The notes beneath the pieces are model-generated. The model was not told the DNA's origin and did no database searches. It saw only the letters and a list, made by a program, of their open reading frames with translations. A DNA stretch of 60,633 bases from the NCBI GenBank assembly GCA_024275165.1, contig JAJRZQ010000039.1, forward strand, positions 1 through 60,633, read 5' to 3'. The stretch's first letter is position 1. Each line of letters opens with the position of its first letter. Below are positions 22,353 to 48,488 of this stretch, in pieces. The position numbers and the translations under genes are program-made. The DNA is from a bacterium (GTDB lineage Bacteria; SAR324; XYD2-FULL-50-16).

Positions 22353-23149
22353 AAGCGTTGCGAAAATTTGGACTTGGCCTGCTCGCCTTAGGGCTTGGCG
22401 TGGGGCTTTTTTTCCTCTTTGAGAGCCAAACAGCCGGCGCGATTATCTTTTTGGTTTTGTTGCTCTTGGCCCAATTGAGCTTTTTACTCAAGCGCATTCG
22501 TTTAAAGCAGCCCGTCCCCCCCCCCCTAGACCCCGCTCGCGTGGCCGGAGTAATTCAAAACATTGCCCAGGCAAAAGAGCAGGCCGCCACCGCCAAGCAA
22601 GTCAAGGAGACCGCGAAACCAGCCCCCTCCCCTGAAGAGTTCACCCAAGACATTACCCCAAGCCTCTTTAGCCAGTTCCAAAAAAATCTGGTGGAGAGCG
22701 AAAAAACCCCTCCCCCCCCAAAGGCATCCTCCGTTGAAGAAGAAGGCGTTGTGGTGCGCATTGGGAAAAAATCAGCCCCATCCGCCCCGCCACCAACGCG
22801 CTCAGAGACTCCAAAGAAAGCGCCCAAGCCCTCTTTGATCCAACCCGTGCAGGGCAAAAACCCCTATCAAGCCGTCCAAAAAAAACAAGCCCCTAGGGCC
22901 TTAAAAACAGACCTAGGCACAAAAAAAGCGGTCGAAAACCGCTTGATCGACCAAGTCCCGACCGAACCGATTGGAGAGCTTTTCGCGGATTTAGAAGAAG
23001 AACCGGTTGAAACCACCCCCAAGGTGCACCCTAAACCGAGAAAAAAACAGGGCTCCTTTCAACTTGAGCCCGCAGTGACCGCAACTAAAGCAAAAGATAA
23101 GGCGTCACCCCCCCCCAGCCCCTCCAAGCCAAAGAGACCCTCAATGTAG
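22349..23149 (+). CDS. membrane-anchored Pro/Lys-rich protein, N-terminal part of a frameshifted gene
   Basis: 266 residues. Two membrane helices (about 7-24 and 30-48) are followed by a long low-complexity region rich in Pro, Lys and Glu. The frame ends soon after a run of nine C at 23108-23116. With one more C the frame would continue without a stop into the TPR-like frame that ends at 23760, giving one protein of about 470 residues. Either the gene is phase-variable, it is broken, or a base is missing from the sequence. The function is unknown. Confidence 0.7.
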   Translation: MKALRKFGLGLLALGLGVGLFFLFESQTAGAIIFLVLLLLAQLSFLLKRIRLKQPVPPPLDPARVAGVIQNIAQAKEQAATAKQVKETAKPAPSPEEFTQDITPSLFSQFQKNLVESEKTPPPPKASSVEEEGVVVRIGKKSAPSAPPPTRSETPKKAPKPSLIQPVQGKNPYQAVQKKQAPRALKTDLGTKKAVENRLIDQVPTEPIGELFADLEEEPVETTPKVHPKPRKKQGSFQLEPAVTATKAKDKASPPPSPSKPKRPSM

Positions 23150-23187
23150 CCGAACTCTCTCCCCCCACCGTAACAGAGCAAGACCTA

Positions 23188-23760
23188 TTGCAAACCGCCA
23201 AAAAGGCCTTTGCGGCCAAGGATTTTAAAGGAGCCAAAGAAATTCTTCAGCCGCTCTTTAAGGAGCGGCAAGAAGCAAAACAACTTGGGGAGGAGGTGGC
23301 CGCTTTTTATGGCGATTTGCTCTTTGCCTTAAGGGACTACCCTGCCCATTTAAAGTGGTCCCAAGAGCGTTTGAAAGTCCATAAAAAAGGGAGCGGGCCC
23401 TATTTAAGGATTTTAGAAAATGTGATGGATCAATACTCTAAAAGCAATCAACAGCAATTGGCCCTCCCCTTTTACTTAACCGCCATGGCGGAATATGTGA
23501 AAAAAAACGATTCCCGCCGCTTGGATGTGACCTATTATCATTTAGCCGAGGCCTACCGAAGTCAAAAAGATTGGAAAAATCTCTTAAAAAGCTTAGAAAA
23601 TCATGTGGCGATTAAAAAAGGACTCGGTGATTTGGAGGGGCAGCTTCCCCTACTCGATCAAATGGGTAAATTACTGTATGATACGGGCAACCAGGCAGCC
23701 AGTCAGAAAACCTATGAATTGGCTATTGAGATTCGCCAATCCCTTGAGCCGAAAAAATGA
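23188..23760 (+). CDS. TPR-like helical protein, C-terminal part of the frameshifted gene
   Basis: 190 residues from the TTG at 23188. The same frame is open back to the C tract at 23108-23116, so this start is probably artificial. Helix pairs with TPR-like spacing occur throughout: AKKAFAAKDFKGAKEILQPL, then ADLY-type pairs such as VTYYHLAEAYRSQKDWKNLL and GQLPLLDQMGKLLYDTGNQA. TPRs bind other proteins. With the upstream piece it would form a membrane-anchored TPR protein. The stop overlaps the Nudix ATG. Confidence 0.7.
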   Translation: MQTAKKAFAAKDFKGAKEILQPLFKERQEAKQLGEEVAAFYGDLLFALRDYPAHLKWSQERLKVHKKGSGPYLRILENVMDQYSKSNQQQLALPFYLTAMAEYVKKNDSRRLDVTYYHLAEAYRSQKDWKNLLKSLENHVAIKKGLGDLEGQLPLLDQMGKLLYDTGNQAASQKTYELAIEIRQSLEPKK

Positions 23761-47153: not shown

Positions 47154-47864
47154 ATGAAACTCATCGCTTTAGTCGGCAAGCCCAATGTGGGCAAATCCAC
47201 CCTTTTTAATCGCCTGGCTCGTCGCCGCGCCGCTATTGTCAGCCATGAGGCCGGCACCACCCGCGACCGCAATATCGCCCCCATCAAATATAAAGGCTAT
47301 CATTTTCTTTTAATGGATACAGGCGGCTTTGAGCCGGAAGCCAAGGAAGAAATCCCCCAAAAAATGCGGGAGCAATCCCAATTGGCGATAGAAGAAGCAG
47401 ACGCGGTCGTTTTTCTTTTAGATTACCAAAGCGGGCTCACCCCGCAAGATAAAGAAGTGTTTCACTATCTACGCCAATCCAACAAACCTGTGTTTGTCGC
47501 GGTCAACAAGGTGGATGGAGACAAACACGAGGCAGGGGTGGGCGAATTTTGGGAAATCGGCGCGGAGGAAGTCATTGCCCTTTCCGCCGAGCATGGGAGA
47601 GGGGTGATGGAGCTTTTAGAAAAGCTGGAAGAAATCTATCCGGATATTCGAGAAGAGGAGAACAGGATTGAAAGCGATGAACTAGCCCTCGCCATCGTGG
47701 GGCGGCCCAATGCGGGCAAGTCGAGCCTAACCAATTATTTTTTGGGAAAAGAAAAACAGATCGTCCACCACCAGGCAGGCACCACTCGCGACCCCATTGA
47801 TTGCTACCTCAATTATAAAAAACGAAAGCTTCGCATTGTCGATACGGCGGGGCTGCGCAAATAG
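47154..47864 (+). CDS. der: ribosome biogenesis GTPase Der, N-terminal part before an in-frame TAG
   Basis: 236 residues. Der (EngA) has two GTPase domains and is needed for 50S subunit maturation. The first G domain is complete: [23 protein letters not shown]. The second starts with [13 protein letters not shown] (about 184) and reaches DTAGLRK. There TAG (47862-47864) interrupts a place where the family has a basic residue followed by GRV or GKV. The remaining frame continues two codons later in the same phase. An AAG to TAG change, or a base-call error, is the simplest cause. Confidence 0.85.
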
Positions 47865-47870
47865 GGGCGG

Positions 47871-48488
47871 GTGAGCCAGCGGATCGACCAATATTCCATG
47901 GCGGCGGCAGTACGCAGTATTGAGCGCTGCGATATCGCTTTATTGGTGATGGATGCCACCGAAGGGGTGGTGGAACAAGACTTAAAAATCGCGGGGCTGG
48001 TTTTGGAACGGGGGAAGGGGCTGATCTTAGTGGTCAACAAGTGGGATCTTTTAGATAAAGAGAGCCACACCCTAGACCACATGAAAGAAGAGATCTATCA
48101 CCAGCTTGAATTTGCCCGCTTCTGCCCCATCATCTTTGTTTCCGCTCAAAGTGGGCAGCGGGTACCGCAAATTTTAGAAACCGCATTAAGGGTAGAGGCC
48201 TCTACAAAAAAACGGATTCAAACCGCGGATTTAAATCAAGTCCTGCAATTGGCCACCTCCCGCCACCAGCCCGCCAGTCGGGCCGGAAGCTCCAACAAGC
48301 TCTTTTACGCGGCCCAGGTGACGGTTCAACCCCCGACCTTTATTGTGCATTGCGCCAACCCAAAAAAAATCGACGAATCCTATCGCCGTTTTTTAGTCAA
48401 CCAGTTTCGCCATTACTTTGGTTTTGAAGGCACCCCGATTCGCATTTTTTGGCGGGCCCGCAACAATAAGAAGGAAAAAACCGCATGA
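47871..48488 (+). CDS. der: ribosome biogenesis GTPase Der, C-terminal part
   Basis: 205 residues from a GTG, in the same phase as the N-terminal part and separated from it by the TAG. It starts VSQRIDQYSMAAAVRSIERC and contains the NKWDLLD motif of the second G domain (about 46). The KH-like C-terminal domain follows, with NKLFYAAQVTVQPPTFIVHC (about 142-161). The full gene would be about 444 residues, normal for Der. The GTG has no ribosome-binding site, so separate translation is unlikely. The stop overlaps the exbB-like start. Confidence 0.8.
   Translation: MSQRIDQYSMAAAVRSIERCDIALLVMDATEGVVEQDLKIAGLVLERGKGLILVVNKWDLLDKESHTLDHMKEEIYHQLEFARFCPIIFVSAQSGQRVPQILETALRVEASTKKRIQTADLNQVLQLATSRHQPASRAGSSNKLFYAAQVTVQPPTFIVHCANPKKIDESYRRFLVNQFRHYFGFEGTPIRIFWRARNNKKEKTA

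Follow-up and report, generated by a model that had tools for sequence, protein, structure and literature searches.

The window, a stretch of 60,633 nucleotides (positions 1 to 60,633 of contig JAJRZQ010000039.1, forward strand), carries the gene for the ribosome biogenesis GTPase Der/EngA. The der frame starts at an ATG at 47154 and ends at a TGA at 48486-48488, and it is interrupted by a lone TAG at 47862-47864 (+ strand, codon 237). The upstream part, an open reading frame (ORF) of 236 codons closed by the TAG (47154..47861, + strand), holds GTPase domain 1, the linker, and domain 2 up to the motif DTAGLRK, as judged from the frame, the alignment, and the profile match. After the TAG the same frame is open again through the TGA (47865..48488, + strand), with the remainder of domain 2 and the C-terminal part. 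The stop thus comes directly after DTAGLRK (the G3 region of GTPase domain 2), with both flanks in frame, as the initial annotation had described. The whole 444-codon frame, with an X at the stop, scored 543.7 bits against the NCBIfam model TIGR03594 (Der; cut-off of 306.7) and matched profile positions 2 to 432 of 432. This score is far above chance, and the gene is an ordinary Der frame that carries a single stop, within GTPase domain 2. The two tandem GTPase domains and C-terminal domain of the Der/EngA family are present in a full match above the cut-off; a single uninterrupted frame is not.

The TAG column of the alignment is occupied by Lys in eight of nine relatives and by Arg in the ninth. 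Among the columns invariant in these nine relatives, der retains 74 of 79 before the stop and 50 of 56 after it (Fisher p = 0.52); for comparison, the relative L010 retains 74 of 75 and 50 of 55. In this alignment, the part of der after the stop shows no extra decay or relaxed constraint. A GTG lies two codons past the TAG (47871..47873, + strand) and is a possible reinitiation codon, which would allow Der to be made in two pieces. However, this codon specifies a Val shared by all 10 aligned sequences and is therefore expected anyway, so that no special explanation of the GTG is needed. The cut would also fall immediately behind the domain 2 G3 motif, and in a survey of 58 genomes, the present one included, the main der matches listed show no stop within the der body in any other genome. 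We give a two-piece Der almost no probability.

The TAG-bearing gene is the sole Der-level match in the genome (47 contigs, 2.69 Mb, 98.35% complete). A second der copy, which had been put forward as one way out, was not found in the 47 contigs, and the 13 other matches all fall below the Der cut-off. Elsewhere in the survey, only weak der matches were obtained for G005, G027, G040, and G045 (4 of 58 genomes; listed completeness of 68 to 88%). In-frame TGA codons in the der genes of G016, G033, G048, and G052 were considered as second cases and rejected, as they are normal terminal stops that the alignment had overrun. A wider contig search returned 80 distant der loci, all at most 46% identical, with no same-species record among them, and nothing was found in a plasmid search. 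Der is broadly essential in bacteria, and a cell without it is not expected to survive.

We additionally took a census of lone stops, in which 1.08 Mb (40%) of the genome was compared with ORFs of two same-family genomes, G002 (1.12 Mb used) and G004 (0.39 Mb used). Early versions were swamped by shadow ORFs and were not counted. The stricter census (identity of at least 30%, at least 200 bits, 25 residues on each side, high-scoring pairs [HSPs] with more than two stops skipped) gave 12 raw internal stops in 293 HSPs and 128,015 codons. Two were removed by eye: C47:151148 (contig:position), whose flanks are unaligned, and C47:173006, which lies just ahead of a conserved start. The remaining 10 are TAA at C16:168025, C28:48821 (PBP4-type gene), C30:75934, C30:145943, C47:51589 (RibD), and C47:192764 (2-isopropylmalate synthase); TAG at C21:42141, C31:47862 (der), and C47:153526 (nitrite/sulfite reductase-like); and TGA at C28:21434, with names taken from a profile scan of six genes. 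A looser list (identity of at least 40%, at least 120 bits; 23 raw stops in 327 HSPs) added a TAG in rpsI (C30:68993) and TAA at C16:73151 and C47:44706, the last two belonging to one sensor-kinase-like and one ABC-like gene (labeled by hand and unscanned); entries taken for tails, N-terminal extensions, or shadow frames were omitted. With this partly by-eye curation, 13 conserved genes in the 1.08 Mb, der included, have a lone in-frame stop (8 TAA, 4 TAG, and 1 TGA). Four raw frameshift candidates were also listed. Uniform substitution would yield shares of 0.43 TAA, 0.40 TAG, and 0.18 TGA, and a single TGA in 13 is not unusual (p = 0.30). The first ten cases were without TGA and had suggested an effect specific to release factor RF1 (TAA and TAG only), an idea that fell with the TGA at C28:21434.

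The relatives served as controls. G002 searched with queries from the present genome gave one raw stop in 273 HSPs (118,794 codons), which was judged a C-terminal artifact and dropped. With G004 queries it gave one stop in 77 HSPs, a TAA at G002:C15:47921 that looks genuine and was kept. The G004 controls had no lone stops in 78 and 70 HSPs, and no frameshift candidate occurred in any of the four control runs. The looser control lists held 5, 2, 0, and 3 raw stops, by inspection tails or shadow frames except for G002:C15:47921. After curation, the comparison is therefore 10 lone stops, der among them, in 128,015 codons versus 1 in 148,962 (one-sided binomial p = 0.003), which is the excess in unrelated conserved genes over relatives that assembly error would produce. 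The G002 stop lies at a Lys site; the gene and its G004 counterpart are about 71% identical.

The clearest second case after der is rpsI. It is the genome's sole Ribosomal_S9 match (C30:68897-69259), with the in-frame TAG at codon 40. A protein search matched 17 of 19 genomes, with an inner stop in the present one only; all seven relatives read have Asp or Glu there. S9 is nearly universal. Its gene is reportedly deletable in Escherichia coli, so der is the stronger essentiality case. In the 2-isopropylmalate synthase gene (leuA), the flanks of the TAA (C47:192764, position 12764 of L067) match a relative at 19 of the 25 residues that precede the stop and 22 of the 25 that follow it. Within the window, a 474-amino-acid ORF of G002 matches two frames, 22409-23050 and 23101-23745, and positions 22409-23745 probably hold a frameshifted gene.

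Lone stops in many genes, with the three codons in mutation-like proportions, could also be real recent nonsense mutations in the assembled strain, owing to genome decay, a mutator, or relaxed selection; der would then be lost or only recently lost. The leuA, nitrite/sulfite reductase-like, and PBP4 genes could be dispensable for a real organism. However, der and rpsI are sole copies, life without Der is not expected, and the remainder of der is undecayed. We consider such mutations unlikely.

Alternatively, the TAG may be real and read through by a suppressor or near-cognate tRNA or by leaky termination, giving full-length Der. The intact frame on both flanks would fit, as would the lone TAG in rpsI. 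However, the genome has 42 tRNA matches, with anticodons assigned by ARAGORN (9 + 33), and none has a CTA, TTA, or TCA anticodon (amber, ochre, and opal suppressors), in a count that covers 150 of 167 first-look candidates and could miss an odd tRNA. An amber suppressor, which the initial annotation had offered as an option, was thus sought and did not turn up. RF1 is intact and retains its PAT and GGQ motifs, and pyrrolysyl-tRNA synthetase (PylS) is absent at the cut-off (best match of 20 bits versus 178.15). The 100 bases from the TAG onward fold no better than shuffled sequences (z = 0.08). TAG is also common at gene ends, as had been noted from the window: it closes 10 of 29 ORFs of at least 250 codons there and, over 220 kb of contig C47, 24 of 121, so that it is not avoided at the ends of long ORFs (34 of 150 in all). 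This bears out the statement of the initial annotation that TAG ends many genes here, from which it had judged general recoding unlikely. All three stop codons occur as lone stops in random-substitution proportions, and TAG recoding or a der-specific device is therefore unlikely; the frameshift candidates are beyond the reach of any stop-codon suppressor. Literature searches covering stop codon reassignment and stop codons within genome assemblies contributed nothing to the analysis. We regard readthrough as very unlikely. It would be even harder to credit that the stops are real and tolerated, with sole-copy der and rpsI yielding enough full-length protein through leaky decoding by an ordinary tRNA set. 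If real, such tolerated stops in core genes that exist as sole copies would be a great surprise.

The TAG is most probably a single-base consensus error in the 47-contig draft assembly, or at most a mutation private to the template that was assembled. We infer wrong bases in the assembly rather than a mutated cell. A consensus base error would create the TAG in der, and the living organism would carry an ordinary, intact gene. This reading is favored because at least 12 other conserved genes are broken likewise while two relatives are almost free of such stops. Error, a suppressor, and a second der had been listed as the options; the first gained support from the surplus of lone TAA, TAG, and TGA stops across the examined part of the genome, whereas the other two were not found. 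Der is one of many genes broken alike, which lay beyond the view of the initial annotation. Some points count against error. A substitution rate of about 6 per 10,000 bases is implied, which is high for a modern consensus. The census, curated in part by eye, spans 40% of the genome. Long-read error would give more frameshifts relative to substitutions than are found here. Lone stops are also not unique to this genome, as G002 has one. Even so, the likeliest reading is that the lone TAG in der is not new biology. If the error reading is true, it is a caution on this assembly, in which single stops need reads before claims of gene loss or recoding are made.

Compared with the Der/EngA family (TIGR03594), the gene matches the profile across the read-through frame and is 56 to 61% identical to eight same-family relatives; it differs in its one TAG. 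Compared with consensus errors in draft and metagenome-assembled genomes, the pattern is substitution heavy, unlike typical long-read indel error. It resembles them in its scattered lone stops of three kinds and few frameshift candidates, in genes that are otherwise intact, and at a rate higher than that of the relatives.
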